Source of the DNA: Chamaelirium japonicum
Lineage: Eukaryota > Streptophyta > Magnoliopsida > Liliales > Melanthiaceae
Length of the DNA: 64,000 nt
Direction: 5' to 3'
NCBI GenBank assembly: GCA_947650365.1
Contig: CANTAL010000696.1
Span: forward strand, 1 to 64,000
Below are positions 6,727-41,166 of the stretch, piece by piece; the first letter of the stretch is position 1, and every line of letters begins with the position of its first letter. The notes under the pieces are model-generated. The model had not been told where the DNA came from, did no database searches, and saw only the letters and a list, made by a program, of their open reading frames with translations. The translations under genes were made by a program, and so were the position numbers.

Positions 6727-6805
<79 letters not shown>

Positions 6806-6822
6806 ATATATATATATATATA
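6727..6822. repeat. (CT)n then (TA)n compound microsatellite
   Basis: CT repeats run to about 6802 with one CTAT interruption and pass directly into a short (TA)n tract that abuts the left arm of the foldback element. Confidence 0.95.
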
Positions 6823-8526
<1,704 letters not shown>

Positions 8527-14595: not shown

Positions 14596-14597
14596 AT

Positions 14598-14610
14598 TGG
14601 TATCAGAGTA
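14598..14610 (+). promoter_or_regulatory. Primer-binding site (initiator Met tRNA)
   Basis: TGGTATCAGAGTA starts two bases after the 5' LTR. It is complementary to the 3' end of plant initiator-methionine tRNA, the primer used by most plant copia elements. Confidence 0.93.
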
Positions 14611-16321
14611 AGGTTTAGATCTTATTCGTCGTTCTCGGATGACGATTCCTTGAGTGTTCTATCTTTTCCGTCGAGATCTAATCTCGTCAGGGATTTTGTT
14701 CCCGGTTTTGGATCGATTCCGACCGGCCATGGCCATGAGATTTTGGTCCGATCTCGTTCGGCGGCGGCTCCAGACTCTTGGCGTCGGACGGCGCACGACA
14801 GCGGCTGCGGACTCCGGCGCGCAGCAGCAGCGGCGGGCTGCGGCAAGCAGCAGCGGTAGTCGGCGACGAGCATGCGCGGGTCAGCGGCAGCTGGTTGCGA
14901 TCGTGACCGGCTGTACGCGGCTCTCAGACGATGCTTCATGCACGCGTGGGTGGTGCTCGAGCAGCGGGCCAGTGCGTGCGACCGGCGGTGGGCTGCGCGG
15001 CGACGGACCGGCACGCGAGATTAGGCGACGGCTGCGTGTGTGCGTGGGGGTGACATGGCGGTCGGTTAGGGTTTCCGACCCAATCGGGGAAGAAGCATAG
15101 TGTTTCTTTTTTTCTTTTTAGTTTTATTGGGTTTTCAAAACCCGACGGATACCCGACCCGACATGACATATTTTGGGTTTAAATCCGATGGCTCTAACCT
15201 GACCCGTCAACTACTTAAATGGTAAACCCGATTGGTTAGTTGGGCTTGAACCCGACATTACCCCTAGACCCGACCCGAAACACTGGTTCGGACCCAGGCC
15301 CAGGCCCAAGTCCCGAACCGACCCAAACCCGAACCCAGATCCAGGCAGACCTGAGCCCAGGCTCAGGCAGGCCTATGACTAGGCCCAGATCTTTATCAGC
15401 AATAATGTATATGACTGTTAGGCTTAATCTGAGCCGTCTATTATGGTTCTGTGATTTTAGGCCTTATCGGTGTCCAATCTGATCGATCCATATATGGATC
15501 TTGACTAATTGAGCCATTCCGGACACATCGGTACGGTCCGATTTCATAAATTCAGACTGTTTTACAACTTGACGCATATATGATACAAATAGTAAATATT
15601 TTAATGTTCCAATATGTCATCTTGTGCCAATTTCAAATTATTGATGTTATCACATGTGTAAGGTAGTCATGCTGCAATTGTAAATGTGCCCTGATGATAT
15701 TAAAGGTTTCATGCTTCTCTGCTAGTAGGCACACATATAATATGCAATTGACAGCTTATGGCTGCCATTGAACCCTATTGGGTATATATGGGCATTATAC
15801 TATATATTAGGTCTTCCATGGGGTTTAGAGAAGACCAAGTGACCATCTGAGGCTCATTTTTGAAATGAGTCGGATTTGCCCAAAGGTAGGCGGCTCATGG
15901 AGATTGTGGGTAGTCGGATTGGAGGGCTTCCACTAGGGTCACTAGGCATCCTATTATACTAGGGTTTGATTCTGCCCAAAGGTGTTTCAGACCACTGAGT
16001 GCAGTAGAATGAGCAGAATAGTAGCCTGTGATTGGGGAAGATAGGATAACCCTTCTGCCCAAAGGTGTTGGATAGTGTCCGACTCAACCCTATTACAGCT
16101 GACTAGGTCTGTTCACGTTTCTATACGTGACTTAGGAAATTGAAGCACATCAAGGGATCTGGCCAAAGCTGAGTCTTGATGGTGTGAGGGAGTTGTCCTA
16201 GAAGAGAACTTAGCACATGAAGTTCTTTTCGGTTGATTTGAATTATAACCCCTAATTCATGTCAACATATATGTGTGAATAGTATCGAACTATCACTAAA
16301 TTTGTAATTCTCTTTTCAGAG
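14611..16321 (+). other. Copia 5' leader, no supported gene
   Basis: About 1.7 kb between primer-binding site and gag. The GC-rich first part holds overlapping frames on both strands (14622-15100) that look compositional. 15120-15380 is rich in ACCCGACCCG motifs resembling the hAT-like MITE interior, but no termini were found. 15840-16200 has repeated TCTGCCCAAAGG-type blocks. Confidence 0.55.
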
Positions 16322-19300
16322 ATGGATTTGTTAGCTATTTTGAAGAATATAGCTGGTATTGAGCCCCTGAATGGCTCTAATTATTCATCTTGGAAGATGG
16401 ATATTGAGATCTTGCTCGGTTGTATGGATTATGACTTTGTGCTTACGGAGCCAAAGCCGGCAGAGCTTACAGACTCTTCTTCTGAGGCCCAGAAGACCCA
16501 CTTTGCTAAGTGGGAGAAAACGAACCATCTTTCTATGATGATGATCAGGGCCACCATTAGCGAGGAGCTTCGAGGTGGCATTGCCAAGACTGAGACTGCA
16601 GCAGAGTTGATAGCATTACTGAAAAGCCAGTTCGTGGTACCAAGAAGTCCCTGTTGTATAACAATATACTTCAGATCATGAATCTGAAGTATGATGGTAA
16701 TGGTAGCGTTCGTGAGCATATTCTTAAGCTCTCGAAGCTGTCCATAGGAATCAGAGAGCAGGGTCTTCAGATTGAGGAGGAGCTTCTAGTCTATATTGCA
16801 GTGATCTCTCTACCTAAGTCTTTCGACACCTTTAAGGTGAACTTCAATGCTCAGGAGATCAAGTGGGATCTCAAGTAGCTTATCACCCTATGTGTAACTG
16901 AGGAAGAGAGACTGAAGGAAGGAAAGGAGTCTGCTAATTTAGGCTTTGGTGGTTCTGGGAAGAAGCCATTTAAGCCGAAACTTCAGCAGCAGAAGCAGAC
17001 CTTCAAACCAAAAAGGAAGTTCCAGAAGCAGTTTCAGGCCAAGGGCAAGCAGATGGTCAAAGGCAAGAATTCACAGGCCTCTGGATGTTGGCACTGTGGG
17101 AAGCCAGGGCATTTGATGAAAGACTGCAGAGTCAAGCAGAATGCTGAGGCACAGTCTTCTGGAGGTACAGCTTTAGTCTGTTGTGAGTCTAATGCTATAG
17201 ATATACCGTCCGATTCTTGGTGGGTCGATTCAGGAGCTTCTGTTCATGTGTCCCACACTTTGTAGGGGCTTAGGAGTAGAAGAAGACCCAGGTCGGAGGA
17301 TAGGCTTTTCCTTAGCAACGATGACTCGATGAGGGTGGAGGCGGTTTGCAGCTACGGCTTGGTGCTGGATTCGGGTCATATTCTAGTGTTGGAGGACGCT
17401 TTCTACATTTCGACCTTCAGGCGGAATTTGCTTTCTATTAGTAGATTATCAGACTCTGGATATGTGTTTGCTTTTAATCAGAACGGTCTAGTTATTTCTC
17501 TGAATGGTATGACTGTTGGCAGTGGTTTTTGTTGTAGCTCGTGTGTCCTTAGCGTGAATTTTCTGTATTAACAATAATAAAGATGACTTTGGTTATTGCT
17601 TTAATTAGAATACTACTCTGGTATATGATAATACTCATATAATAAAAGGACCCTAGGGAACACAGTAGTCCGCTGAGGCGCATGGAGGATCCATGCTTGG
17701 GAGACCCAGTGGACCAGTTCTGTGTAGACCTAGAACTAGTTCATAGCTTAGGTAATGCTGGTCGCTTCACCGAGAACAAGTTGTTAGCAGGTAGATGATG
17801 TAGTGAAGTCTCCATTACGGGAATGCGGGATTCTCATTCACCTGACCAAGCACGATGATCGTGTTGAACAGGAACCAAGATGGTGCACAGTTCAGTGATT
17901 CAGACACTGGTGCATAAACCGTCTTACTACTATAGATAATCTGTCCTTAACCTTGAGGGACCATGTACACTGGGCCAACCAGTTGTGTGGTGCTTTGATG
18001 TGCCAACGTGTGCGGACCTTCCATAGTCCAATACCACAGTACATTGGGCTATCCGGCTAGCGCTTGAGTGACATGTAATCCCTACAAGTTATCCAACGTC
18101 CAGTATTGGATGGGTGCGTTTTGATAAGTCAATCTGTCCACACAGTTAACCCAGGCTTGGTGGTTGTTAGTATGACTAACGATGTTCCGGGTGTTAGGCA
18201 TAGCACCGGAAGATGTGTGGTGTTATAGATGATAAGTCATCAAACCCTAGTTAGATGATCGATCGGGATCTGACGGTACTCCCCACCGCCCGAGTCGTAT
18301 CATGCCACCAGTAATAGGAGGGACTAAGGATTATCGGAGTATAGTAGAGAACAGGGTTACGAGGGAGTAACATAAGTTTAGGATCACTAGAGTTCAACTC
18401 GCGTCGCACTCTGGGTGGCTACGTGGGTTAATCGGATTAGGGCTGATTAACGAAACTTTCGGTGTGTCACCGGAACAGTTAATCAGGGATCCGGTTGGAG
18501 CTAGATATCCCGAACCCTAAAGGTTCCACCCTGTCGTTGCGTATAGGAATTGTTCCCCGACCTAGTTGGATACGTTGGATGCGAAGTAGCGCGATGAAGC
18601 GCAAGCCCGGAGCCTAAGAACCTAATTCACATGTGTTACGGGTCGTAGGGGTATTTTGGTAAATACTGAAATATAGCTCAGAACACATTGAAAATGGATC
18701 TTAGATTGAGCGAAATAATTTCAGGAGCTCATAGGTGCTGACGGAACTCGATTCCGAGTAGCGTACCTCACTCAGTCTCTCTTTCAGTTTTTCACTTTTC
18801 ATGAAGGGCGTTTTCGTCCAGGCTTCACGATAGACACTTGGATATCCCTAAAACCGCCCCCCCTCTATCCTTATCCTACTAGGGCCAGCCCTAGCCTCCT
18901 TGGAGCCATGGGAGACCGGCCCTATAAAGGAAATAGGGAGGGGGAGGGCCGGCCCTAGTGCTCCCTCTCCTCCAGAAAATTTGACCCCCCCTTTAGCCCC
19001 CTCCTTTGTGGTTTCGGCCAAGGAAAAGAGACGAAGAATAAGGGAGAAGGAAGAGGAAGGAAGGAGAAGGAAGAAAGGAGAAAGAGGAGGAGAAAATCTC
19101 GTGGCTCACCATCGTCTTCGTAACGGATTCCTCCGTCGGCTCGTAATCCCTGCACTCAGAGACGAGATTTCGAGGATTCTTCAATTCGCAAAGGACAAGG
19201 TGCTATCCGACAGTTTCCCTTGTGATTCAAGTGCGGTTCTTCATCGTTCTGTCATCTCCAGATCATAGATCCATAAGGTATGATGAATCTAAACACCTAA

Positions 19301-22300
19301 CTAGATGCATTCATGTCTTCCGTAGATCGTAGTATGCCTCTAGGGTGTCCGAACATATGCTAAGATCGTAGATTTGCATGTAGATTGTTTTATAGCAAAA
19401 TTGTAATGAAACATACACCGTATGATCTTCGGATCTTTCTTTTGCTTCCACTGCGACTCTGATTAGCGGATCCAATTCCAACAGTTTTCTAGTGGATGGT
19501 TTATTCAGATTATCTTTATGTTCTACTTCTGTCTCTTGTTTATCTGAGCCACTAGATGCTACTATATCCGGGTCAAAGCGTTCCTTTCTAGCAGAGAATT
19601 CTGTTGTGCTTTGGCATAAGAGATCAGGCCACATTTCTAGGAAGAGAGTAGAGGCCATAGTGAAAGATGAGATTCTACCTAGTCTGGATTTTTCAGACTT
19701 TGGTACTTGTGTGGACTGCCTCAGAGGGAAGATGACTAAGTAGAGAAAACTCACAGCTACTAGAGCTTCAGAGTTTTTAGAGTTGATCCACACAGACATT
19801 TATGGTCCATTCCCAGTCAAAGCTCGTGGTGGTCATAGTTATTTCATCACGTTCATTGACGGCTTCTCTAGATATACTTTTGTGTATCTTCTCCACCACA
19901 AGTCAGAGGCTTTGGAAGTCTTTCAGACATATCAGTTGGAGGTGGAGAAATAACTTGATAAGAAGATCAAGGTAGTTCACTCAGATCGTGGAGGAGAATA
20001 TTTTGGAATGATGAACCAGGATGGTGTGAATCATGACCCTTTCTCTGAGTATCTGAGGCAGTAGGGGATTGTTCCCTAGTATACCACACCTGGCACTCCT
20101 AAGCAGAACGGTGTGGCAGAGAGGAAGATTAGGACTTATCAAGATGTTGTTCGTAGCATGATGAGTCACTCTTTTCTTCCAGAGAAGTTTTGGGGAGAAG
20201 CTTTGAAGACAACGGTTTATATTCTGAATCATTGCCTTGCAAAGCTGCCCCAGAAACCCCTTACAAGAGATGGAAAGGTTTGACTCCTAGCCTCCATCAT
20301 TTGCATGTTTGGGGTTGCCCGGCAGAGGCTAAGCTCTATAATCCATAAATAAAGAAACTTAATTTTTGCACAGTTAGATGTTTCTTTATTGGCTATCCTG
20401 AGAGATCGAAGGATTTTCGGTTCTACTGTCCTTCCAAACCATTGGAGATAGTGGAGACCAATAGGGCTGTATTTCTGGAGGATGCAGCATTCAGTGGGAG
20501 CCAACGACCATTTGATACTCTTTTAAGAGAGAACTCTTCAGAAGGTGTTGTGCCAGCGCCATTTTTTTCAATTATTCAACCAGATATTATAGCAGATACG
20601 ACACCAGCACCTGCTGAGATGGTAGCTGACGTTGACCCACTACCAGTTCAGGCTGTACCGGTTTTAGATACTCCAGTGGAGCCAGTCATGCCGAGGAGGT
20701 CAGATCGACAGCGTAGGTCAGCTATCCCAGACTATTATAAGATCTATTTTCAGGAAATTAAGAGTGAGGGATCTAATATTACTGACCCTACTTCCTTCCG
20801 TGAAGCCATGGGTTACAATGAATCTCGACAGTGGCTGGAGGCCATAAGAGAGGAGTTGCAATCTATGGAGAAGAATCATGTTTGGAATCTTATTGTGATA
20901 CCAGAAAACCAGAAGGCGGTGGAATGCAAGTGGATCTTTAAGACCAAGAGAGATGCTGATGGCAAGATCGAGAGATTCAAGGCCAGACTTGTGGCTAAAG
21001 GTTTCAGGCAGAAGGAGGGTATTGACTTTGGCGAGACTTACTCTCCGATTTCCACTAAGAACTCCTTGAGAGTGATTATGGCCATTGTAGCCCATCACAA
21101 CCTGGAATTGCACCAGATGGATGTTAAAATAGCGTTTCTGAATGGTGATCTGGCAGAGGATATTTATATGTCACAGCCAGAGGGCTTTGCAGTCAGTGGG
21201 AGCGAACAACTGGTTTGCCAATTGAGGAAGTCTGTTTATGGGCTGAAGCAGGCTTCCAGGCAGTGGTACCTGAAGTTTGATCAGGTTGCTACAGAGTATG
21301 GTTTCCAAGAGAATATGGCTGACAGATGCATATATCTGAAAGCCAGTGGGAGTAGGTTTGTCGTACTCGTCCTCTATGTTGATGATATTCTCTTGGCGAG
21401 TAATGACATTCACATGCTCCATGATGCTAAGTACTTCTTATCAAAGAAATTCGATGTGAAGGATATGGGTAAAGCAGACTATGTGCTTGGGATCAAGATT
21501 CACAGAGACAGAGCAGTAGGAATTCTGGGACTCTCGTAGGCAGCTTATATTGAGAAGGTCCTGAAGAGGTTCAGGATGGATAGGTGTGTTCCGGGTGAGG
21601 CACCAGTACTGAAGGGAGATGTTTTTTCCCAGGATCAGTGCCCCAAGAATCAGGCTGAGAGGAGTCAAGTGGATACAGATGAGTACGCTTCCATTATAGG
21701 GAGCGTCATATATGTTATGACTTGTATTCGACCAGACATCAGTTTTGCTGTTGGGATGTTGGGTCGTTATGTGCAGAATCCGGGTGTAGCTCATATGCGT
21801 GCAGCTAAGAAAGTTCTGAGGTATCTTCAGCGTACCAAAGAGTTCATGCTTAACTACAGGCAGGGCAGTGAGCTTCAGGTGATTAGCTACACCGACTCAG
21901 ACTTTGTTGGCTGTAAAGACACCCTGAAATCCACTTCGGGATATGTTTTCCTGTTGGTGGGAGGAGCTATTTCGTAGAAAAAGCACCAAACAGTCAATTG
22001 CGACTGACTCCACTATGCATGCAGAGTATGTTGCTTGTTATGAGGCTATAAAGCATGCTCTTTGGTTGAAGAACTTCGTTGGAGGCTTAGGCATTGTGGA
22101 TTCGATCCAAAAGCCTTTGCCAATTTTCTATGACAATGAGGTTGTTTGTCAGCATGTCAAGTATGAGAAGATTACCAGACGCAACAAGCACTTATATATC
22201 AAGTATATGCTTGTCTGCGAGAAAGTCAAAGGGAAAGTGATGGAGATCCCGCATGTTCGCACAGAGCTGATGGTAGCAGACCCTCTCACCAAGGGACTTG

Positions 22301-22362
22301 CACCAAAGGTTTTTCAGAGCCATGTAACCCGTATAGGCTTAATGGAGTCCTTATATCAGTAG
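16322..22362 (+). pseudogene. Ty1-copia gag-pol polyprotein, decayed and interrupted
   Basis: Order of parts: gag (16322-16880), CCHC zinc knuckle (CWHCGKPGHLMKDC, 17089-17130), aspartic protease (WWVDSGASVHVS, 17218-17253), GAG-pre-integrase (HKRSGHISRKRVEA, 19612), integrase (IHTDIYGPF at 19786; SDRGGEYF at 19981), reverse transcriptase (20880-21480; FNGDL-type and YVDDILLAS at 21377), RNase H (21860-22362). Together these package, copy and integrate the element. A solo LTR interrupts it at 17530. Frameshifts lie near 16640, 20243 and 21977. In-frame stops are at 16876, 17263, 19741, 19951, 20062, 20077, 20346, 21537 and 21975, all TAG or TAA. Non-functional. Confidence 0.95.
17530..19483 (+). 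mobile_element. Solo LTR inside copia pol
   Basis: Starts TGTTGTAGCTCG and ends CAATTCCAACA, flanked by the exact duplication GTTTT (17525-17529 and 19484-19488). It interrupts the protease/pre-integrase region: frame 1 is open up to it and continues in the same frame after it, because insertion plus duplication is 1,959 bp (653 codons). A TATA-like CTATAAAGG lies at 18921-18929, placing U3 left and R/U5 right, so plus orientation. No primer-binding site, coding region or second LTR is present, so it is a solo LTR left by LTR-LTR recombination. The short frames at 18900-19268 are not genes. Confidence 0.88.
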
Positions 22363-22836
22363 TTGAGTCCCTTTGCTTTGCGTTTAATGACTTATGTTTC
22401 GTCTTTAGATGAATAATGCTCGATGCCATTTCCTTATTTGATTTATGTCAAATGTAAGCAAGATCATTGCCTGGAGTACACAGTACTCAAGTGACATTGA
22501 GACTAGGCATGCTTAGGCAACATGTTAGATAGTCCAATGTGCCTGGAGTAAGATGACTTACTCAAGATACTGAGACTAGACATGCTTTGACAATATATCG
22601 GAACGTCCAGTACACGGTACTCAAGAGAGACCTGGGCTAGACGTGGGTGGGCACCACATCGAAATGCCTTCATTCTGTTTGTAGTTGATTAGGTATCAAC
22701 ATGGGCATTAGAACGACATGCTTGGACAAGCATGAGGTTGGACATCATGGGTCTGGGCATAAGACCAAGTGATAATGTGCTCAGATAACCCATAGACACA
22801 TGAGAAAACCACCAGAGTTGTTTGCTGGAGTTCTTT
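22363..22836 (+). other. Copia 3' untranslated region, left part
   Basis: Between the end of pol and the CACTA insertion. It carries several diverged copies of a TGGAGTA...ACTCAAG...GAGACTAG(A/G)CATGC block. The rest of this region continues at 30973-31228. Confidence 0.7.
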
Positions 22837-22859
22837 CACTACAAGAAAAGACATATTCT

Positions 22860-23380
22860 GCGATATATTAGAGCATCGCCAAAAGTGGTCATATTCATCG
22901 CGAAATATCGTTCGCGACGCTTCAAATTACGTCGCGAAGACGTCGCCTATTCCCCGTCTGGGAATACTTTCGACGACGCAATCAAAGTGCGTCGCCGAAA
23001 GCATTACTAACTGCGACGCAATAAGCGTCGCCAATTGAAACAAAAAACGTTGCTGAAATGATCTCCCATGTCGCAAAAACAACTAACTTAAGCTTATATG
23101 TAGAACATTTAGCGACGCACCATATGCATCGCCAAAAGTAAAAATATTTGACGACATATATAATAACGTCGCCAATAACTTCTAGCGAACAAATAATAGC
23201 GTCGTAGAATGTATACTTTGGCATCGTATAATGTATATATTTAGCGACGTAATAATTACATCATCAAATTTATCCATTGAGACAAATATATACATTATGC
23301 GATATAGTTATCACACCACAGAATATACACATTAAGTGATGTAATGTATTACATGCGTCACCAAAAGTCAAATTCTTAAT
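22860..23380. repeat. Left subterminal CGTCGC repeats of the CACTA element
   Basis: Dense short direct and inverted copies of CGTCGC/GCGACG and decayed forms (ATCGCC, CGTCGT). In characterised CACTA elements such subterminal motifs bind the element's DNA-binding protein; that role is inferred here. Confidence 0.85.
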
Positions 23381-23619
23381 ATTATTTGGTTAAATATTAA
23401 ATTTTTTTCATGAAATCTTTATATACATGCATTCATCTATACACATTTCATTGAAAATAAAAATACACAAGTATTTATTTAAACTCAATTAGAGTCAAAT
23501 AAAAAAACTAAATTATTCTTCTAAACAGACATATCCGCAATTATCCTTCACTCAAAGAGAAATAAAATCAAAAAAATCATCATATCTCATGTTTAAGGAG
23601 GCTACTTTAAAGCAAATAA

Positions 23620-24900
23620 AATAAAAGATAGGGGTAATATAGCAATGAATAATCATATAGAGATGCAAAATAAATCCCAAATACACATGTGATCCATTTT
23701 CGGATCTTCAAAATACAAAATATTCCTATAGAGAATGATATTTGTGATCCCAAATCTTGAATCAGATAACCAACTAGCAAGAGACTTTTCCCAAATCTTG
23801 AATCATCGATGACTTTGTCTTGGAAATTCTTGTTGAGCAGATCCTTTGACTTGTTCTTCAGTTCGAGGGAATGAATGGTCTCTTCCATTTTCTTTAGTTG
23901 ACCATCTTTGCTCTTAATATCCTGCTTGCCCTTCTCAACCTGAAAATCAACATAGATAACTTATTAAGGTCAAATAGAGAGAAAGGATCATGGGCGCTAT
24001 ATATGGAAAAGTTTAAGTTTGTTGTGGAGTACTATATTTATAGAATAAGACAACTTTTTTGAAATATTATACCATCTGTTTGTATCTGAAGACTTCACTT
24101 CCATCCACATGCTTCTTTGCAGGACCTAGTTCAATTCCCCTAACTCTACTTGCAAAATTCAGGGAGCACAGAGTCTTGCCGACATCATTTTTATTAGGAC
24201 TGATCTGCACGAACATCAAAATCTTCGAGTCTCCACCTAAATAGCTTATGTTAGTCACATTGAACCTAACAGAAAGGTGTCAAAATGAAAAACATAGTAT
24301 AAAAATCGAAGAACATAAAAGAAAAATAAGTACTTAAAGAGTCTTGGAGTATGTAGGTAAGCTTTGAATTCCTACATAATTTCAAGGGAGTCCCAAATTT
24401 CAGATTATGGAGTTATAGAGTCACTAAATGTGCTGCATGTTACAAATATCCATTCACGACCTGAAGGGAATATGGGTGCTTTTAGTTGCAAGAGCAGATA
24501 TCACGTCGCCGAGCATAGAAAGGGACCTGTTGATGCTTTGTGCCTCCTTCAGACGCTCTCCTTGAGCATCTATCTTTGCCACTCTCTCACTTCCAACCAG
24601 GTCGATGAGCCACAGCTTACTCCTCGTGCACTCTCCGCTCATTAGATTCTCCCCTCTTACCATCACAGTGGATAATGAACTAGAGAGAACTCAACACATT
24701 AGCCTTCGGCCATAATTTAGAACATCTATCATAATTAGTTTGAATTTAGCAAGAAGATTAACCAGTGTGATCGACTGCTATGTTTGTTCGCATTGATTGA
24801 ACCAACAGCCCGGGCATCCATCAGTGCTCTCCTGATTTCTATTTGCTCCTTAAAGAGCAAATCATAGGCTTGTTTCAACTTCCAACAGCAGCTACATTTA
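23620..24900 (-). pseudogene. Captured KIN-14 kinesin motor fragment
   Basis: Minus-strand pieces match the second half of a minus-end-directed kinesin motor and its neck. A switch I region (GSINANKHSSRSH, ~24760-24825) comes first. Switch II follows ([10 protein letters not shown], 24580-24610) with [17 protein letters not shown] later exon (24258-24067) has YLGGDSKILMFVQISPN and LCSLNFASRVRGIELGPAKK, and then a coiled-coil-like tail (MEETIHSLELKNKSKDLLNK, 23888-23820). The P-loop half is absent. Exons are separated by intron-like gaps. Further unassigned coding-like sequence reaches about 25090. Captured and non-functional as a motor. Confidence 0.88.
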
Positions 24901-25311
24901 TCCTGTAAAACTTGGTTGAATTAGTCCTGCGGATGCTCTACTTTGATCACTACATAACAATTCTCGGAGAAATAGAATCCCATTACCTTTCTCATTTCAA
25001 ACTCTCCCATGATTGATTCTTCCTCCTCCTTTCCCAGTATGGTTGTGATGCTTCGAGCCACCTGTTTCCGAAATCTTTCGCCTGATGATCAGACGAATAT
25101 TTGCTGACAACTTGTTAGGAAAAGAAAATCACAGGGGGGAGATAGGGGTGAGAATTTACCTGCAGAAGGATCATTTATTATCGAAATACCGCACACAAGA
25201 GGCTTGCCAACGACGCCTTCGAATCTGATCGATAAACCCCCTTCCCTGTTAATCGAAGCTCTTAGATCTTTATAATCAGTGGCTGGTTCGAGCCCACCTC
25301 CGCATAAATAT

Positions 25312-25372
25312 CTCTTGCTAGTTCGTTATTTGTGATCCCAAATCTTGAATCAGATAACGAACTAGCAAGAGA
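25312..25372. repeat. 19-bp perfect hairpin at the junction of the captured fragments
   Basis: TCTCTTGCTAGTTCGTTAT (25311-25329) is the exact reverse complement of 25354-25372, with a 24-nt loop. It lies between the kinesin and the hnRNP Q fragments. The loop and right arm are part of a 57-bp sequence repeated almost exactly at 23741-23797. Confidence 0.85.
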
Positions 25373-25405
25373 CTTTTCCCAAATCACCTCGAACACCACA
25401 CTTAC

Positions 25406-26700
25406 CTCTACCTCTTTGAAGTGGTCTCAACAATCTAGCCCTAACCTTTACCTAGAATAAGAATTTATTGATTTTATATGTGAAAAACACGTCTAAATAG
25501 CCGCATTTAAAATGAAGACGTTAAACCACAAATTGCAAAAATATTAGAATGCAAGGGAAAATAAAGGAATAGAACAAGGCAAACCTTATTATCTCCTTCA
25601 CCCAAATCGGCATTGTTAATGCCTTCAGCACACGCAATCGCAGAATTGTGCGCACTAAAAGTGACAAACCCAAAATCCTTTCTCTTCGCAGCTGGCATAT
25701 TACGCATAAACTCAATTTTCTCAATCTCACCAAATTTCTTCAGACATGCCTTGACTCAATCCTCATCCCATGCAGCAGGTAAACCATCCACAAACATAGC
25801 TTTGACCTGATATCAAAATGCACATGACCATTGAAAACTTCTGACCACTTTGAGGATTCAAAATTAGTAAAATCCAATAGACACCCACTATGATTTTACA
25901 GACATAATATTGTATTGAGTATTGAAGTGAAAAACATCCATAACACCAATGATATACAAATACCTTCATTATGCTACATATTTTGAAGGAATAAGCATGC
26001 GTTTACATAACAACTCACCAAAGAGGTTACTGAATCATTCCATTTAGAGTTATCATGATAAAAGAATTGACTCAAAAAAGGGCTTAGTTTAATGTACCTG
26101 TGCCATTATTTCATCATCCGGTTCAATGAAAGAATAAGCAAAAGTAACCTTTGCAGATCGATCAACGCCAAAGATAATGTCCCTCCTTTGAAGGCGCCTG
26201 TATGAATCCATCGCTTCAGAACGAGATGAAAATTCCAAGAACGCAAACCCACGGTTCATCCCCTCATTGGTCGCATCTTCAACTAGTGTCAAATCCTCAA
26301 TGTTCTCAATTCCATAGGTTTTTAGCTTCTCCTTCAACTGAAAAACAAGATTACATATATGGTGGAGACTACAAACAACCTGAAATATTGTCCATAAGGA
26401 AACTTAATACGTCCTACTCACATGTTCTTTTGTCCATGTCTTGCATATGTTTCCCAGGAAAAGGGTGTCACTGTCTTGACTGGGGGCAACACCACATTGT
26501 TTTCCATTCACCATTGGATTCTTGAGCTCTGAAATAGCTCGTTTTGCTTGCTCTACAGTTGAGAAACGCAAGAATGCAAAGCCCTTATTCTTCTTTGTCA
26601 AGGGATTCATCATGAGCCTCACTTCAGTAATCTCCCCAACTTCGTTAAAGACTTTCTTAAAATCATCTTCTGTTGCATCCTTGTCTAAACTAAATGCTGA
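25406..26700 (-). pseudogene. Captured hnRNP Q/LIF2-like RRM gene fragment
   Basis: Four minus-strand exons keep consensus GT-AG borders: ~26698-26422 (RRM1; KNKGFAFLRFSTVEQAKRAI, then DTLFLGNICKTWTKEH opening RRM2), 26337-26098 (rest of RRM2; MNRGFAFLEFSSRSEAMDSY), 25806-25585 (RRM3; VKAMFVDGLPAAWDED and FGFVTFSAHNSAIACAEGI) and 25451-25406 (VRARLLRPLQRGRG, a linker typical of plant hnRNP Q/LIF2-like proteins). RRM domains bind RNA. An in-frame TGA at 25758-25756 breaks exon 3; start and C-terminus are missing. Retained introns show capture as genomic DNA, not as cDNA. Confidence 0.88.
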
Positions 26701-26740
26701 AACCACAAAAGAAAAAAGGAAATATATTTTATCATAGAAG

Positions 26741-28690
26741 CAAGGTTTTCTTTGGTCGTGATATCAGCTGATTCGAGTCGATACTGGTTTCGACCGTTTA
26801 AAAAAATCCAAAAGAAATTGCAGGCCGATACTGGTCTGACTCAGCTGATACGGATCGATTTTTTTCGATTTGGACCAAGTACCGGCTAGTGATTCGCTAT
26901 TGGCCAGTAGAAAACCAAGTCATACCGGCCGGTATGACTCGATATCGATAGTGTTTTGAGACCATGAAACCTAAAAATTTAATGATCCCTTAAAGGTAGA
27001 ATCATGAACTACTCATTGAAACAAAATGTCCTATTAAATTGAATTACCAATCTTTAGAAAATTTAACATAAAATAGGGCTTCAAATTAAGTAAAAACACT
27101 TTTTTAATTGAAATAGGGCACCATGATTTGTTTTTATTTTTTACCTGTACTTCCAAACTGTTGAATTAGTTAATTCAACTATCAAAAAACAAACACTAAA
27201 TCATTTCATGTATGATGATACATCAGCCCAACCTATACCAAGCTTTCTTGCTTCTGTTGCGGGTCTAAATCTTAGAAAACTCAATTCTCTTGGATTCACA
27301 ACTAACGGATTTGGAACAAATAACAAAGATAACAAAAAGAACTAAATAAACTAAAACAAAGACCATATTTATCTCACTTAGTTAAAAAGTATAAACATTT
27401 CACTATCAAAACTTCAAGACGGATGTTTGAGAGCTTCAAATGAGTTGAATCACTGAGTACCAGTCTAATGGCAGAAATCCATCCAAATAGGTTAATCCTA
27501 GTGTTTGGATCAGATTCAGCACAATGAAGCTACCTTCTTCAATGCATTGGACTTCACCAAACAATCACAACTAGTTGACATGATAGCCTTCAAGATACGT
27601 CTATTTTGAAGGGATGAATTCTCTAAGATCAGTCTATTTTGAAGTGAAACTAATTCAAGTAAAACATGAGGTATTTTCATTACTCATATAGTGTATACTA
27701 GAGTACAGGGCCGGCTTGATCATAAGGCCATTAAGGCAGTCACCTAACTGCCTAAGGCCCCACGTGAACAAAAGGCGTTCGAGGCGCAAAACGATTTAAT
27801 TTAGCTTGCATCAAACAGAACAAGTTGGCAATCAAACATTGCTCACATTAAAACGCAAAGAATGGAAGGAGGAAGAAAAATAATGAAAGACCATAAAACC
27901 CAGCAAAAAACAAGCACTTTCTTGATTAAAAAGAATATCTTATAACTAAACCCACCTGCTCCTCCTGCTCGTGCTCGAAATTCAGTATAAGGCTAACTTT
28001 GGGATCTCAGATATTCACATTCTTCACAGTTAACCACAACAATTTAAACCTCTGCAAAATTTGGGATCTCATATATTGAAACAATAAACCCTAATTGTGT
28101 CCTAATTTGAACGATCCAGCGGTTACAATCTCAGTATTTATTTACAACAAACAACAAACTAATCAAAATTGAAAAGCAAGCTTTCAAACATTGGGAGTGA
28201 TCATAGCAGATTTAAAGGAATTTTTTGAAGTCTTTTGAATCTCTACTCCAAATCTTTGACGGATCTAAGGTCAACGAAATAATGACGGCCTGATCGGATT
28301 GGATCGAATCGGATCACACCAAAAAAAAAAAAAGAGAGACACCACAGCCTGATCGGATCACACCCAAAAAAAAAAAGAGAGAGGGAGGGGGCGAACCTGT
28401 CGAGTTCCCTATTACCAGCGGCGGCTCCGGCCCCTTTGCTCCGATGCCCTCCTCCTTGCTCCGGCGCGCCGCTACGTGCAGCCCACCACAGAAATTGGGA
28501 AGGGGTGGAGAGGGATCGGTGTTTAGGGCTTAGGAAAAGGGGCGGCTGAAGAGATTGAGAAGGGCTACGGGGATTTCGGGGGGGGATAGAGAGGGGAAGG
28601 TGTGAGAATTTTTCGGGATTGAGAGAGAGAAATTTGGGCGCGCAGAGGAGATATAATGGGTGAGGGTGGCGGGAATGAGATTAGCGATCA
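26741..28690. other. CACTA interior, unassigned
   Basis: No gene seen. 26755-26960 repeats motifs such as CCGATAC(T/G)G and GGTATGACTCGATATCG. A CAGGGCCGGCTTGATC hAT-like terminus is at about 27706. 28390-28490 is GC-rich and could be a 5' untranslated exon of the captured hnRNP Q gene (a possible donor CAG|GTTCGC on the minus strand near 28396), but this is a guess. Confidence 0.4.
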
Positions 28691-28698
28691 GGTTGGAG

Positions 28699-28919
28699 TA
28701 CGGGTGTCAACGGATCGGGTCGTGTCGGGTTTGTGTCGTGTCGGGTCTTCATGGGTCTACCGTGTCCAATCCCTAAACCTGGACCCGACCTGTTCATAAA
28801 ACGGGTCTATTGTGTCGACCATTTTACGACCCGAACCCATTTAGGCCTGACCTAGACCCGCTAACTTCGTGTCGGGTCGTGTCGGGTCTGCCGTGCCGGG
28901 TCCGAAATTGCCAGCCCTA
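28699..28919 (+). mobile_element. hAT-like MITE (GGGTCGTG family), copy 2
   Basis: TACGGGTGTCAA start, TTGCCAGCCCTA end, exact 8-bp duplication GGTTGGAG (28691-28698 and 28920-28927). At 221 bp it is about half the size of the other copies, so internally deleted. It is inside the CACTA element and next to or within an older remnant of the same family. Confidence 0.93.
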
Positions 28920-28927
28920 GGTTGGAG

Positions 28928-29960
28928 TCGTGTCTAGTTTAGGGTCGTTGCAATGCCCTAGACCCGGACCCAACCCATTTAACCACTACAACATAAATGA
29001 TCTATTGCGGCGGGATAAACGACGGCCATCCCTACCCGGCCAGAAAAGGAATCAAATCCGGTGGCCATTCAACACCGCCGGAAAAGCTTGAGCAAATACG
29101 ACGTCTAATGTCCACCGGTTGAAATAAAATAAGCAAATCCGGCGGCCAAAGTCCACTGGCCAGAAAAAAAGATAAAATCTGGCGGCCAAAGTCCACCGGC
29201 CGAAAAAAAAAATAAAAATAAATCCGGTGGCCAAAGTCCACCGGCCAAAATAAAAGAGAAAATCCGGCAGCCATCCAATACCGCCGAAAAAGCTTGAGCA
29301 GATCTGGTTCCCGGCCAACGGTCACCAGTAAAAAATTAGCAAATTCGGGTGGTGGGGGAGGTGTCGGAGAGGGAGGAGGAGATGAACACTCTCCTCCTTC
29401 ATCGTCGTCATTGCTGGTTGGCCTACACTGAAGATGGAGCAAAAAAAACTAGTCATCTCTAACAGGATAAATATATATAATCCTAATCATTAAGTAGGTT
29501 TGATGGATAGGAGAGCTGGTAAATGCATCGTGTGTCACGCAGGTGGGATCTCAGATCGAAGTTGGGTATAGGCGATACATTAAATATTATGACTGGGCAT
29601 ACGGGTGGTGGGTTTCGGGTCTCGCATGTTGGCTGTTCGGTTGCAGTGCCAGTTTTTTTTAATTTTATTTATGCACGTATAAGCGGAGGCCGGCTCAGCC
29701 CCCACAAAAAGGGAAGCATATGCAGCAACATAGCCGTTGTTAAAGCCCATGTATAAGCGGCAAATTGATCGTTTAAAACTTCTGCGACGGGTGCATATGC
29801 GGCCACCAGTTTCGGCGGCCAAGTTACCGAAAAAATATTTAACCGGTCATATTTAGCCACCGATAAAGTCCAGATTTGTTGTAGTGAACTAATCTTGTTT
29901 AGACCCTAAACTCGTACCAAACCCGTTTAAAAACAGGTAGACCCAATAAGACGGTTGTGG
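28928..29960 (+). mobile_element. Older hAT-like remnant split by a small CACTA element
   Basis: 28928-28983 (GTCGTGTCTAG... then CCCATTTAAC) and 29887-29960 (AACTAATC...AAACCCGTTTAAAAAC) together follow the interior of the copy at 301-757, which reads continuously through CCCGTTTAACTAATCGTG. The 28984-29886 element interrupts them. The outer termini are not identifiable. Confidence 0.65.
28984..29886. mobile_element. Small CACTA-type element
   Basis: CACTACAACA at the left and TGTTGTAGTG at the right (perfect 10-bp inverted termini), with 3-bp duplication AAC (28981-28983, 29887-29889). Inside are repeats of CCGGCGGCC/GGCCGGTGG type blocks, notably 29110-29280. No transposase is present. 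The interior and subterminal motifs differ from those of the enclosing CACTA element, so it is another family. Open frames on the minus strand (29032-29442) follow the repeat and are not convincing genes. Confidence 0.88.
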
Positions 29961-29989
29961 GATTTTAAATTCTTGCATTCTCCTAACGA

Positions 29990-30960
29990 TTTTATGACGT
30001 ACGAAAAACATCGCCATAAAAAATTGAGAATCTGCGCCGTCATAAACAATGTTTCCAAAAATAAGGAATTTTGCGATGGATAACTATGTCGCCGATTGCA
30101 ACTAGCAGCATACTTAGTCTCGTCGCTAAAACTTTTAATTTTTCGCGACTAAATTTATTTCGTCGTAAAAAGTAAACAATTTAGCGACATCTTATTGTGT
30201 CGCTAAATAGTTATTTATCGTCGCCAAAAAAGTCCCCTTATAGACGCGAAAATTTTATTTTACAGAATGATTCTGCGACGCACGTACAATGTCGCTATAA
30301 AAAATTAAGAATCTGCGATGCCATAAACACGAATTTCACGACGCACAATTACGACACCAATTGCAACTAGCAGCGCACTTAGTCCCGTCGCCAAAATTTT
30401 TAATTTTCCGTGACATAATTTATTTCGTCGCTAAACATAAATAATTTAGCGACGTCTAACTGCGTCGCCAAATAACCATTTATCATCACCAAAAAAATTT
30501 ATCCGGCCTTATAGGCGCGAACTCAACTATGCTATGAAACCTTTAGCGACACGATTTTGCAACGAATAAGATATTGCGTCACAAAAAGGCAACTTTCGGT
30601 GACGTAAAAGGATTTGCGTCGTCATATACAATGTTTCCAAAAAATAAAAAATTTTGCGACGCATAACTATGTCGCCGATTGCAACTAGCAGCATATTTAG
30701 TCTCGTCGCCAAAATTTTTAATTTTTCGCGACATAATTTATTTCGTCGCTAAACGTAAATAATTTAGCGACGTCTAACTGTGTCGCCAAATAGTCATTTA
30801 CCATCGCCAAAAACCTTTATCCTCCTAGGCGCGAACTCAACTATGATAGCAAACCTTTAGCGACATAATTTTGCGACGAATAAGATATGGCGTCGTGAAA
30901 AGGCAAATTTCGGTGACGAAAAAGGATATGCGTCGCAGATAAATGTCGCTAAATGTGCAA
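29990..30960. repeat. Right subterminal repeats of the large CACTA element
   Basis: Three diverged tandem units, marked by ATTGCAACTAGCAGC at about 30094, 30360 and 30679, each with many GCGACG/CGTCGC motifs and TTTAGCGAC blocks. They end at the CACTA terminus. Confidence 0.88.
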
Positions 30961-31228
30961 TTTCTTGTAGTGTTTGTGGGTCTGATAGGTTGACTATGGA
31001 TATGAACTAGCATAGGATATCCTGGAACAATCATGATCTTCTGTCAGTATCATTTTGAACAAAGACATGAATGGTCCCTTAGTATTTTTTTTCTTTTAAA
31101 ATCGATCCAGATCGTGTTTTTCAAAATTGAGTGACTCTCCAAATGTTAAAAAAAAAATATATTTTCATTACAAAATTATATATGTATATTTTGAAACAAG
31201 TTCCCACACTTGTATTGTGTAAAGGGCC

Positions 31229-31239
31229 AAGTGGGAGAT
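31229..31239 (+). promoter_or_regulatory. Copia polypurine tract
   Basis: AAGTGGGAGAT directly precedes the 3' LTR; it primes plus-strand synthesis in copia elements. Confidence 0.93.
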
Positions 31240-31665
31240 TGTTGATTTTTGATGGCCTTTTACGGGAGAGTTACTGAACTAGGTGGACCGGGTTGGTTGT
31301 CGCGGTCCTGGTCAGACCAGGCGACTCAACCAAGAGGCTTGACAGGGTTGGTGGTGAACCTAGCCTCATTCTCATATGCACTCAATAATCGGTGGATGCC
31401 TTGATAGGTTGCGTCTATCGGTTGGACACATCTATTATAAATAGATATGCAGGGGTGAAGTCCCCATACACACGTCTTTAGAGCCGCCGTTGTGAATCCA
31501 GAGGGATTTAGAAGGACCCATCGAATCTGCGGGAGACGACAGCGTGTGGAAGATCTTCACCCGGTATTGCGAACGATCTCTCTCGTCACACGAAGGTATG
31601 TTCTTCATCCAAGACGACGATCTCGGTCTGTCGATCGGGATTGTTCTCGTGTAGAAAACCCAACA
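31240..31665 (+). repeat. 3' LTR of the Ty1-copia element
   Basis: Same length and ends as the 5' LTR; TATA box at 31436-31443; followed by the duplicated ATGTT. Confidence 0.97.
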
Positions 31666-31824
31666 ATGTTAAGGAAATCTTGAGTTTCCTGCATTTTGGA
31701 CAAAGAGCATTTAGTCTCATATAAGAAAAAAAACATCAGGTACTGTGCTCCTGAGGAGATTTTTGAGGCTATGGATTGCAGGGGGGCTCCCCAGACCCCT
31801 GCAATTCCAGCTAAGAGTCTTCAT
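31666..31824 (-). pseudogene. LINE ORF2 start (endonuclease N-terminus)
   Basis: On the minus strand ATG at 31824 opens a frame with LSWNCRGLG, the hallmark N-terminus of plant LINE endonucleases. A frame change near 31730, where one extra T appears, is followed by an ETKCS segment typical of the Mg-binding glutamate region. The frame is cut at 31666 by the copia insertion and continues at 14169. The ORF2 ATG overlaps the ORF1 stop as ATGA. Confidence 0.85.
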
Positions 31825-34768: not shown

Positions 34769-35206
34769 TAGGGCTGGCAATTTCGGACCTGACACGGCAG
34801 ACCCAACACGAAATTAGCGGGTCTGGGTCAGGGCTAAACGGGTTCAGGTCGTAAACGGATCGACATGATAGACCCGTTTAATAAACGGGTCGGGTCCGGG
34901 TTTAGGGTCTGGACACGATAGACCCGGGAAGACCCATTTAAAATTCAACGGATCATGTTAGGTCGGGTCCACCCGCAATCCGATACTGTATTATACAGTA
35001 CTAGCGGGTCTATCGGGTAAGGTCGGGTCGAGTCGGATTGGGTCGGATCGGGTCAACTGAATAGACCCGTGTGGTAAACGGGTCTTACAGGGTCTACCCG
35101 TTTATTAGCGGGTCGGGTACGGGTTTAGGATTTAGACACGATTAGTTGAACGGGTCGGGTCGGACACGACACGAACCTGACACGACACGCCCCGTTGACA
35201 CCCCTA
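34769..35206 (-). mobile_element. hAT-like MITE (GGGTCGTG family), copy 3
   Basis: TAGGGCTGGCAA start and TTGACACCCCTA end, exact 8-bp duplication GCTGGGAG (34761-34768 and 35207-35214). Opposite orientation to the copy at 301. Interior rich in GACCCG/CGGGTC. No coding capacity. Confidence 0.95.
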
Positions 35207-35939: not shown

Positions 35940-38372
35940 TGTAGACACACGAATTTTGTCTAACCCGAACCCGACTTGCGTACACCTACGTGGATGCAAA
36001 CCCGACGCGCGCTCCGACCCGGACCCGACTTGCACGCACCAGTGCGGACCCGGACCCGATTCGCGCCCAATAAGGGAGGAGCGGACCCCACACTCAAGGG
36101 GGGCCGGCCCCTACTAGGGACCCGAACCCCATGGGGGCCGGCCCTTACTAGGACCCGAACCCCATGGGGCCGGCCGGCCTTGCAAGGAAAAAAGAAAAGA
36201 AAGGAAAGAAAAGAAAGAAAAGAAAAGAAAAAGGAAAGAAAAGAAAAGGAAAGAGAAGAAAGAAAAGGAAAGAACTACCGCCATGCGCGGGGGGAGGTTG
36301 TGTATGACGTCTGCTCACGCGCGGATCTGCGCCGATCCCTCGATCCGACGAACAAGAAGAAAAGCCGGGTCGCCATCGATTTCGTGTGCAAAATCCAGCC
36401 ATAATTGCCCCGCCAAGAAAGGAAAGCAAATAAGTGTTATTCCCCTCATCAATGGATGAATAAATCCCGGGTAATTATAAGGGAGATATTAAAAGGATTT
36501 AAAATTAAAACTTCCCATATCTCTCTCCCCTCCCCTTTGCCTATAAATAGAGGGGGTGGGGGAAGGCTCAAGAGGTCGAAGATTGAAGAGGAAGCGAGGA
36601 AGCTCTGCAGAAAAGGAGACGCTTCTTCATCGACCCAAGGCTTCACGAGGCACGGGCAAGCCTGTCCCTTCGGGATCGGCTTAGTCCATTGAAAGCCCTC
36701 ATCAACGTGAAGACCCTTGCACAAGAAGATCAAGCCTTCGACTCCGTGCACGAAGAAGAAAGCTCGGAGAAGAAGAACCCTTCGACTCCGAAGACGCCAG
36801 AAGCAAAGGCCAGAGAAGAAGATCGGAACGGCATCACCCCGTCGTCTCCAACAACCCTTCGACTCCGAAGACGCCAGAAGCAAAGACCGGAGAAGAAGAT
36901 CAGAGCGGCACTACCCCGTCGTCTCCAACAAGCCTTCGACTCCGATCAAGCTCAAAAGCCCGGAGAAGAAGAACGAAGCGGCGCTACACCCGTCATCTTC
37001 AACAAAGCCTTCAACTTTGATTACGTCGAATACGCCCGGAGAAGAAGCCGACGTCACAACCGTCGCCAGGTCGAAGATCGAAGAAAAAAGTGGGGAAGCT
37101 CTGCAGAAAAGGAGATGCTTCTTCATCGACCCAAGGCTTCACGAGGCACGGGCAAGCCTGTCCCTTCGGGATCAGCTTAGTCCATTGAAAGCCCTCATCG
37201 ACGTGAAGACCCTTGCATACGAAGATCAAGACTTCGACTCCGTGCACGAAGAAAAAAGTTCAGAGAAGAAGACCCTTCGACTCCGAAGACGCCAGAAGCA
37301 AAGGCCGGAGAAGAAGCTCGGAGCGACTCTACCCCGTCGACTCCAACAAACCCTCCACTCCGATCAAGCTCCAAAGCCCGGAAAAGAGGAACGAAGTGTC
37401 ATCAACCCGTCACCTTCGATAAACGTCCGCTCCATCCATGAAGAAGAAAGACTGGAGAAGACTACCTGAAGCATCGCTACCCCCGCCGTCTTCATCAACA
37501 AAAGTCGACGCTACAACCGTCGCACGGAGACCGTCGCTACCCCCGTCGTCTTCATCAACAAAAGCCGGTGCCACAACCGTCGCACGGAGATCGGTGCTAC
37601 CCCCGCTATCTCCGAAAGCATTCTTCAACTCCGATCATGCCAAAGAAACCCGGAGAAGAAGAGAAGTCCACCCGACACCCAAACCGTCGAAGCACCGAAG
37701 AAGTAGACCACGTCGTTCGAGAAGAAGACCGAGTTTATGCTGAAGCCAAAGCCCACGCAAGAAGCCAAAGCAAAATCCCCGGTAAAGCCCGCGCCAAAGC
37801 AACGCAAGTGCCAAAGCCAAGTGACTACGTCGGCCATGAGCAAAAGCACCGCACGTTCTAGCCGATACGACGTGAAGTCCAGAAGAACGAAAGCATCGCA
37901 AGTCTCTCCTGTCTACGTCCAAGCGCAAGTGCCAAAGCAAAGCAAAAGCCAGAGCCACGCCAAAGCCAAAGCTGACGCCAAAAGCACGATCGACGCCGCG
38001 AACCGACGATCAAGGACGCCGAGGTCAAGCGAGGAGCGAGGAAGACACGAAGACCGAGGAACGAAGTTGAAGACCCCCTAGCCGAGGAAGCGCGAAGCAC
38101 GGAAGGGACCGAAGAAACAACGGATACTCCTTAGTGTCTCCAAAACCCTCACCTTGTAAAGACCTCTGTCCTGGCCAACTCCTTCAGAGCTCTCGCACGA
38201 ACACCACGTGGAGACGCGGATCAAAGGGACCCTCAAGAGGATTTCTCCCACAATCCCCTGACCAACACTCGCCGGGACCTGGACTCGCCACACCCGAGCC
38301 ACCCGGGTCCCGGCTACACTTGTAATCTCGTTTTGTGCAATAAAGACGACTCGTATCTTTTCCGCGCATACA
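35940..38372 (+). repeat. 5' LTR of the gypsy element
   Basis: 2,433 bp. TATA box TATAAATA at 36542-36549. Downstream of it are arrays of ~78-bp repeats (CCTTCGACTCCGA... AGAAGAAGA blocks) and a ~500-bp duplication (36566-36770 versus 37066-37280). The Lys/Arg-rich frames across it (36689-37469 and others) occur in both LTRs and are repeat artefacts. Near 38330 GCAATAAAGACG is a likely polyadenylation signal. Confidence 0.96.
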
Positions 38373-38378
38373 GATTTC

Positions 38379-38395
38379 TGGCACGCCCGGTGGGA
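38379..38395 (+). promoter_or_regulatory. Primer-binding site of the gypsy element
   Basis: TGGCACGCCCGGTGGGA starts six bases after the 5' LTR. Position and TGGC start fit a tRNA primer site; I do not assign the tRNA. Confidence 0.65.
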
Positions 38396-38432
38396 CATCT
38401 TTTCCTTTCATCCGTACGACTGAAGAAGCTAC

Positions 38433-40990
38433 TTGAAGTTTGCAATGGCCGGGACAAGCAACGATGCGTTTGCTCCAAGCCTTTCACCAATCGTCGAGTC
38501 TCCTCTACTCCGACACGGTGATCCAGTAAACTCGGAGGGTGATGCTCCCCCGATGGTACGTGTCTACACTCGGCGTACTCGAACCCTTGCGAATGTCTTC
38601 ATGCCGGAAACTACTGCCGAAGATGCTCGCCAAAATGCCGACGAGGCCTTGGTGCATGAAGAAACGCACCTCGATCCTGGAGTCCATGTCCAAAAATTTG
38701 GGGAGGACCAGCCCCAACCACGAACCCGTTCGGATTCTCCAGTGGACGTTGCACCTCCTCTGTAGGGGGGAAACATCAATCATCAACCAGAAGCAAGTCG
38801 GCGTAATTACATCTCAGACGACGACAACAAGGATGCTAGCATGCAACATCGAGACGTCCTCCGTCACCATCCTCCGTCCGCTCTTCAGCTTCAAGTCATG
38901 CAGATGAGCGAGCACATGGCGCAGATTACTCGGCTGATGGAGGAGAAGGATCATCACATCAATACTCTGCTCCAAAAGCTAAGCGCAAAGGACGCTGCAG
39001 CAGTCGGTCAACCCGTTGCTTCCCCGGTAGCTGCTCCAGCTCCGTCTTCAACACCCGCTCCTGCAGAGGTTGTTCCGACGATTCAAGCAGTTACTTCAGC
39101 GCTCTCCTCGGCTCCTGTCCCAATGGAAGTCGTCTCCCCAGCGCCAGCCTCGGTGGCCACACAACCTCCGGCAACGGCAACGATGAATGCTCAGCAAGTC
39201 CAAGCGTTGGTAGCCGACATGATGCGCTCCCACGGCAGTGGCCTTCCTCCGATCACGGCAGCATACTCGAAGCCCTACACCGCGAGGATCCAGCAGCTAA
39301 GCTTCCCAGTCGAATTCCAGCCACCAAAGTTCCAGCACTTCGACGGAAAGGGAAATCCAAGACAGCACGTTGCTCACTTCATCGAAACTTGCAACAACAC
39401 GCACATATGGCGACGAGATGGTGAAACAGTTCGTTCGCACCCTCAAAGGCAATGCGTTCGACTGGTACATTGATCTTTCTCCAGGACCATCGACAGCTGG
39501 GATCAGATGGAGAGGGAGTTCCTCAATCGCTTCTATAGCATCAGGCGAACCGTCAGCATGACCGAGCTTACTGCAGTCAAGCAAAGGAAAGATGAGCCGG
39601 TGATCGACTACATCGACAGATGGAGGAACCTCGTGTTGAATTCACGAGACCGTTTGTCTGAAGACTCGGCCATCGAGATGTGCACCCAAGGCATGCACTG
39701 GGGCCTGCTCTTCATCCTTAAAGGTATCAAGCCTCGGTCTTTCGAAGAACTCGCGACTCGGGCTCAGGACATGGAACTCAGCCTAGCAAGCCGTGGGGAC
39801 TCAAAGAACAAAGACTTCTTGAAGGTGGAGAAGCAGGACAAGCCGGCCCCACCGAAACCAAAACAAGTCAATATTGCGACATCGCTTCAACCTTCAAGCC
39901 GCTCAAGATCGGTGGCAAGCCAGATCAGAAGAAGGGAGTCGCCATACCGCCACCTCCGCCGCCAAGACAAAGGATGACTCTCGAGGAGCTCGAAGCTAAG
40001 GAGTACCCCTTCCCGGACTCGGAAGTCTCCTCCATGTTCGACCAACTGCTGCAAGAGAAGACGATAGAACTCCCTCCTTCGAAGAGGCCCGAGCAGATGC
40101 ATCGCGTCGACGACCCTCTCTTTTGCAAATACCACCGGGTGGTAAGTCATCCCATCGAAAGATGTTTCGTCTTCAAGGAAAGAATCATGGCACTCGCAAA
40201 GCAAGGAAAGATAGAAATTGACACCGGGGAGGTCGCTACGGCCAACATAACGTCCATCACCTTCGGCTCCTTCTCGCCGGTACTCGTTGCTGCTCGGCGA
40301 AGCATGCCCAAATTGCGCATCAACCGTCAAGCGCCAACCGCTAAGTCAATTTCCCAGCCGAAAGTCTCGAAGCGACGTCAATGTACTCCTGCGCTCACCA
40401 AGGAAGAAACGACGCTGCCCTGGGGGCAACCATCGCTCACGCCAGCACCTCTTCCAAGCAATGCTACATCCCAACGAGCGCTCCAAAGGAGATACAAGCA
40501 GGGAGATCCAGAAGTCGGTCTGCTGGGCCAGCCTTCGAGAAAGTTCGACTACTACGTCCTCTACTCAAGGCCTCCGTCCGTTTCAATTGAAAAAATCAAG
40601 CCCACCGGCTGGGAATCGGAAAACGAGCCAGTGGAGCTTCAGGAAGAGCAAGTTTCTTCCAGTCGAGCTACATCCCAATGCGCTCTCCGGAAAAGATACG
40701 AGCAGGGAGATCCAGAAGTCAGTCTGCTGGGCCAGCCTTCGGAGAAGTTCGACTATTACGTCCTCTACTCAAAGCCCCCATCTGTTTCGATCGAAGAAAT
40801 CAAGCCCACCGGCTGGGGATCGGAAGACGAGCCAGCAGAGTCTAGGGAGAAACAAGTGTCTGCAAGGGAACCAGTTGCTGCTGCCAATCATTATCTTAGC
40901 AGAGGGAATCCACCGATGAAGAGGCATGGGTCATGCTACCACGGCGGCGAAAGCCACGACAAGAAAGGCAACAGAAGCAAGACCGTGTGA
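38433..40990 (+). pseudogene. Gypsy gag region, decayed
   Basis: Frame 38433-38765 continues past a TAG (38763-38765) to 39395, where frameshifts move it to frames ending at 39977, then 39974-40990. The retrotransposon gag core is clear: FQHFDGKGNPRQHVAHFIET (39331), GNAFDWYIDL, FLNRFYSIRRTVSMTEL, IDRWRNLVL and CTQGMHWGLLFILKGIKP. It would form the capsid. The following segment has CKYHRVVSHPIERCFVFKE (~40127), which in this lineage precedes the protease. Two near-identical ~60-codon blocks (ARSQRALQ-RYKQGDPEV type, 40462-40620 and 40668-40830) are an internal duplication. Confidence 0.9.
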
Positions 40991-41166
40991 TGAGGAGGCT
41001 TCCCGAGCGGAAGATCCACAAGAAGAAAAGCAAGACTCCTGGAAGAAAGGCATTCAAAGTGCCGCCAGCAAGCCAAGACGATCTCCTTCAGCAGAGCCAT
41101 CCAGAATCAGCAACCTTGTAAGAATTCTTCCCGGATCACTTCCTCCCAGTCGATCAGCACATCAGG

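Follow-up and report, generated by a model that had tools for sequence, protein, structure and literature searches.

A CACTA element carrying intron-bearing pieces of host genes inside a Copia retrotransposon of Chamaelirium japonicum

A 64,000-nucleotide (nt) stretch of DNA from Chamaelirium japonicum (assembly GCA_947650365.1, contig CANTAL010000696.1, positions 1 to 64,000; hereafter, the window) contains at 22837-30972 a transposable element that is very probably a Pack-CACTA: a non-autonomous CACTA element that captured genomic DNA, still unspliced, from two or more host genes and later inserted into a Copia retrotransposon, at a point between the reverse transcriptase gene and the 3′ long terminal repeat (LTR) of the latter. 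The transposase would have been supplied in trans, made elsewhere, and the cargo would be a passenger without function. Directly observed are the ends of the element with their target-site duplication (TSD), the flanking Copia LTRs, gene pieces that retain introns, a stop codon in the reading frame of the RNA recognition motif (RRM) piece, a kinesin motor that lacks its front half, and a 59-bp direct repeat with an inverted arm around the kinesin piece.

Element ends and class

The terminal inverted repeats (TIRs) are identical at 12 of 12 positions and TTT is duplicated at both flanks (22834-22836 and 30973-30975), confirming the perfect termini and TSD described in the first-pass annotation of this DNA. 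The sequence CACTACAAGAAA occurs at 22837-22848 on the plus strand and at 30961-30972 on the minus strand, its only two exact copies in the window; allowing up to one mismatch gives four matches, and a second pair of CACTACAAGAAA-type ends is absent from the window. A 12-bp inverted repeat plus a 3-bp TSD would not, taken alone, be remarkable in 64 kb: any such arrangement occurs three times in the window and, in 30 first-order Markov resamples of it, 1.27 times on average and at most three times.

More specific signals connect the two ends. The 11 CACTAC and 7 GTAGTG sites of the window form, at spacings of 300-20000 bp, only two pairs with matching 3-bp TSDs: the element itself and a smaller CACTA element nested within it (28984-29886). 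GCGAC-type subterminal motifs number 14 in the 5′ array (22837-23400) and 37 in 29887-30972, in which the 3′ array (29985-30972) consists of repeated units spaced 265-318 bp apart; there are none in the approximately 6.5 kb between the end arrays and 14 in the other 55.9 kb of the window. Given the scarcity of such pairs with matching TSDs and the end-specific arrays, we conclude that the two ends belong together.

TIRs starting with CACTA, a 3-bp TSD and subterminal arrays at both ends assign the element to the CACTA (En/Spm) superfamily. A six-frame Pfam scan of the element at E up to 1 returned RRM_1, Kinesin, a sub-threshold ZPR1 zinc finger match and an MJ1010-like match without significance (E 0.083), and no transposase family; a hidden transposase was rejected on this basis, in line with the first-pass reading. 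Because a CACTA transposase was not found, we file the element as a non-autonomous member only. It is a non-autonomous CACTA element with host coding DNA, as a Pack-CACTA should be; packFinder additionally expects related genomic copies and drops singletons.

Host Copia retrotransposon

Self-comparison of the window revealed 429 bp in direct orientation at 14169-14597 and 31239-31667, 94.4% identical. At base resolution they correspond to the two LTRs, at 14170-14595 and 31240-31665, of a Copia retrotransposon (14170-31665, plus strand). The LTRs start with TGTTGG and TGTTGA, end with CCAACA and are flanked by the TSD ATGTT at 14165-14169 and 31666-31670. They differ at 24 of the 429 aligned columns (22 transitions and 2 transversions; Kimura two-parameter distance 0.059). 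After the 5′ LTR lies a TGGTATCAGAG stretch that resembles a primer-binding site. The region between the LTRs encodes a reverse transcriptase of Copia type (RVT_2, E 1.6e-66).

The CACTA element is placed between the open reading frame (ORF) 21928-22359, the last upstream ORF of at least 110 codons and one without a Pfam match, and the 3′ LTR. The CACTA element inserted later than the Copia element. Because the CACTA element sits inside the retrotransposon, the captured pieces are not native at this site, and a native gene neighbourhood is not involved at the locus.

Captured gene pieces

Pfam and PDB comparisons support the two fragments proposed at first pass, a kinesin motor fragment and an hnRNP Q-like RRM fragment, both on the minus strand. 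Introns are kept in the RRM piece (three) and in the kinesin piece (four), which upholds the accompanying claim that genomic DNA was captured.

The RRM piece comprises an exon for RRM1 (26422-26689, with a start at 26689 if TTTAG serves as acceptor, or at 26696 if the preceding CAG does), exons for RRM2 (26098-26337) and RRM3 (25585-25806), and part of a last exon (25386-25451, lower end near 25386). The three introns, of 84, 291 and 133 nt, all have GT-AG borders. Spliced, with X typed at the stop, the piece gives three RRM_1 stretches (Pfam E 4.3e-38). The top-ranked PDB match is poly(A)-binding protein (E 1.7e-23), matched domain by domain; hnRNP Q (6kor, E 6e-18) ranks second and is colinear over query residues 73-246, and these consecutive RRMs colinear with hnRNP Q are the reason for calling the piece hnRNP Q-like. 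The likeness to plant LIF2 proposed at first pass is possible. The frame is interrupted by one stop, an in-frame TGA at 25758-25756 in the RRM3 exon.

Four RRM exons with GT-AG borders had originally been described. The three introns stand, and the last border, at 25406, is doubtful because the frame stays open beyond the GT at 25405: it runs on as RGKCGVRG, which by comparison with relatives is probably genuine protein sequence, enters the 59-bp repeat and then stops. By eye, no upstream coding exon of the RRM gene was recognized in the element.

The kinesin piece (23811-24837) encodes the C-terminal half of a motor and the coil that follows, in exons at 24837-24763, 24679-24461, 24371-24334, 24236-24073 and 23939-23811. 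Its four introns, one of them 24762-24680, have GT-AG borders, and the frame is open over 208 codons. On the exact splice, Pfam Kinesin (PF00225) matches with E 2.1e-49 over profile positions 187-327 of 327, and with E 1.8e-48 on a slightly different splice. The front half of the motor (profile positions 1-186) was not found in the element by Pfam, including the six-frame scan. In PDB, KIFC3 comes first, followed by two kinesin-like chains, 1sdm and 3h4s, of which 3h4s bears a calmodulin-binding label; the matches include KIFC3, KCBP and Kar3, which are kinesin-14s, making it plausible that the captured gene is a KIN-14.

A further exon of the kinesin gene probably lies upstream of the motor, at 25160-25312 of the minus strand, its frame apparently shifted by 1 nt. 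It may correspond to the malectin domain of plant malectin-domain kinesins, and domain tests did not confirm the resemblance: neither its own frame nor a joined reading has a Pfam match to malectin, there is no PDB match, and an E of 0.085 appeared only for a query with made-up padding, the unpadded query being without a match. Malectin-domain kinesins of the KIN-14 class have the malectin domain N-terminal to the motor (PMC7094084).

Proposed order and mechanism of capture

The kinesin piece is bracketed by two copies of a 59-bp direct repeat, R at 25327-25385 and R′ at 23739-23797, identical at 58 of 59 positions. R starts approximately where we judge the RRM-like reading to end; R′ runs on into unassigned DNA. 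At the edge of R, a 19-nt exact inverted copy of part of R occupies 25311-25329, its first 3 nt being the last 3 of R (all three features are given on the minus strand). The longest inverted match at this edge in 500 shuffles was 10 nt.

This arrangement suggests that templated break repair brought in the kinesin piece when the RRM piece was already present. The RRM-gene piece would have entered the CACTA element first, and a later double-strand break with staggered ends would have fallen just beyond it. Fill-in of the staggered break would give the 59-bp direct repeat, and one broken end, snapping back on itself, would give the 19-nt inverted copy; the snapped-back end would then copy kinesin-gene DNA into the gap before joining. 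The scenario implies that the RRM piece was the earlier capture. We tentatively suggest, at somewhat less than even chances, that the duplication and the snap-back were left in this CACTA element by templated end joining of the polymerase-theta-like kind. This would give both an order (RRM first, kinesin second) and a mechanism for the second capture, one distinct from the tandem-insertion model favoured for Pack-CACTA elements and discussed below. In animal Pack-TIRs, gaps are documented to be filled with the help of template switching and microhomology (PMC8277862). Judged by titles and the beginnings of abstracts, no paper describing such footprints in CACTA elements is among the 12 listed of 222 papers on polymerase theta with gene capture, or among the 8 on CACTA with gap repair or template switching.

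Several points weigh against this account and against the view of the cargo as a passenger. The repair scenario is drawn from one locus, with putative breakpoints read from the element itself. The 19-nt arm could be partly kinesin sequence, and both the probable exon upstream of the motor and its apparent frameshift are judged by likeness to relatives. The motor half is open over 208 codons, as a long-decayed passenger need not be. In addition, the published Pack-CACTA model, of neighbouring insertions moving as one, needs no break repair (PMC8903248).

That tandem-insertion model is the main alternative for how the cargo was acquired: neighbouring CACTA copies would have moved as a unit with the intervening host DNA, in one or several rounds, with internal deletions afterwards. 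It was proposed for Pack-CACTA elements and is backed by maize and rice comparisons (PMC8903248; review, PMC13317346); it also predicts intron-bearing genomic DNA, as found in this element. We nevertheless regard it as rather unlikely here. The only internal CACTAC...GTAGTG pair with a TSD belongs to the separate nested element of 903 bp (28984-29886), which was considered as the remains of a fused sister copy and rejected, as it has its own TSD, AAC, and subterminal repeats that differ from those of the outer element. Furthermore, GCGAC-type motifs are absent between the two end arrays, and this route gives no reason to expect the 59-bp repeat and inverted arm that surround the kinesin piece.

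Alternatives: cargo function and native origin

The first-pass annotation proposed that a chimeric transcript, or antisense or small RNAs, could arise from the element and regulate the parental kinesin or hnRNP Q-like gene. Signs in favour of a regulatory or chimeric-protein role are confined to the same-strand order of the pieces, a promoter- or leader-like stretch upstream of them and the open frame of the half motor. The promoter-like stretch (28397-28660, minus strand) was recognized by eye from a TATA-like motif, ATTATATC, a CT-rich leader and a CAG/GT donor. A precedent is the soybean element Tgm-Express1, which gives chimeric spliced transcripts (PMC1947982). We consider such a function improbable for the element described here: a TGA interrupts the RRM frame, the motor lacks its front half, no upstream exon of the RRM gene was recognized, and insertions separate the promoter-like stretch from the element end. 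An ungapped scan moreover found no long inverted duplicate of the cargo, with arms of at most 30 nt among the best 25 of 102 pairs, and a hairpin source of small RNAs was rejected for lack of one.

That the kinesin and RRM genes are native neighbours with CACTA ends arising by chance, the outcome that would have overturned the first-pass reading, can be dismissed as next to impossible: an inverted repeat and TSD of this size are indeed expected about once by chance per such window, but the CACTA-specific motif, the end-specific subterminal arrays, the position between Copia LTRs with their TSD, and the 59-bp repeat bracketing the kinesin piece all contradict it.

Relation to known elements

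The Tpn1 family of Ipomoea includes CACTA elements that have taken up genic exons together with introns, in other species and with other genes. Our element is close in kind to the Pack-CACTA (Pack-TYPE) elements of Arabidopsis and maize, with which it shares CACTACAA-type ends, a TSD, the lack of a transposase and fragments of host genes from more than one locus (PMC8903248); it differs in lying inside a Copia retrotransposon and in the 59-bp repeat and inverted arm at one capture junction. In maize, coding DNA in a Pack-TYPE element often stems from more than one locus, which is most marked in Pack-CACTAs, and Arabidopsis Pack-CACTAs are cited as similar (PMC8903248).

With Tgm-Express1 our element shares CACTA ends and several unrelated gene fragments in which exons and introns are kept. 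Tgm-Express1 carries five such fragments, lies in a gene intron, and is transcribed and spliced into chimeric transcripts (PMC1947982), whereas the present element lies in a retrotransposon. Captured fragments are also described in CACTA elements of Chenopodium, in a study that ascribes capture by CACTA elements to a mechanism proposed by Rubin and Levy (PMC8978399). In a search for a captured kinesin in a CACTA transposon, the one paper listed of three was, by its title and the beginning of its abstract, on another subject.

A multi-gene, intron-bearing Pack-CACTA is thus of a kind already known, and the repair-like scar is slightly unusual. The element adds one more case of plant exon shuffling by CACTA elements. 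The junction, if our reading of it is true, would offer a legible case of a CACTA element gaining a second gene, a step on which models compete.

Other features of the element and the window

A third captured piece is possible in the element, a weak match to a ZPR1 zinc finger at about 28008-28076 on the minus strand. It covers about two dozen residues, with one stop within. The Pfam E is 0.0013 in the six-frame scan and 1.2e-4 on a 100-residue stretch, where it scores 21.9 bits against a cut-off of 23. ZPR1 is the sole PDB match up to E 10, with a whole-sequence E of 4.5e-4 that sums weak domains, the best single i-E being 0.47.

A miniature inverted-repeat transposable element (MITE)-like insertion at 28700-28919 has GGTTGGAGT at 28691-28699 and at 28920-28928, and is presumably hAT-like. 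It matches 596-757 (76%) and 34769-34935 (82%) in direct orientation and, in part, 35096-35206; 58366-58703 is linked to these matches in the self-comparison.

Adjoining the Copia retrotransposon, a minus-strand series of ORFs at 10205-14054, one with an RVT_1 match, is perhaps a remnant of a long interspersed nuclear element. A Gypsy-type LTR retrotransposon occupies 35940-53248, with LTRs of approximately 2.4 kb that are 95.8% identical and gag, reverse transcriptase/RNase H and integrase domains; a long ORF on its antisense strand (47142-49202) matches the Plant mobile domain. Shortly beyond its 3′ LTR, a 5S rRNA-like sequence at 53606-53723 (42.4 bits against a gathering threshold of 38) is the one match of an Rfam scan and lies outside the CACTA element; a tRNA scan gave none. 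An open frame of 681 codons at 59556-61598, which matches the U-box (E 9.4e-20) and plant U-box ARM domains, is perhaps a real host gene. An inverted pair at 6803-7031 and 7359-7588, 98% identical and placed around GC-rich tandem repeats, may be a foldback or MITE-like element, and a tandem array of 44- and 55-bp units lies at 62755-63262.

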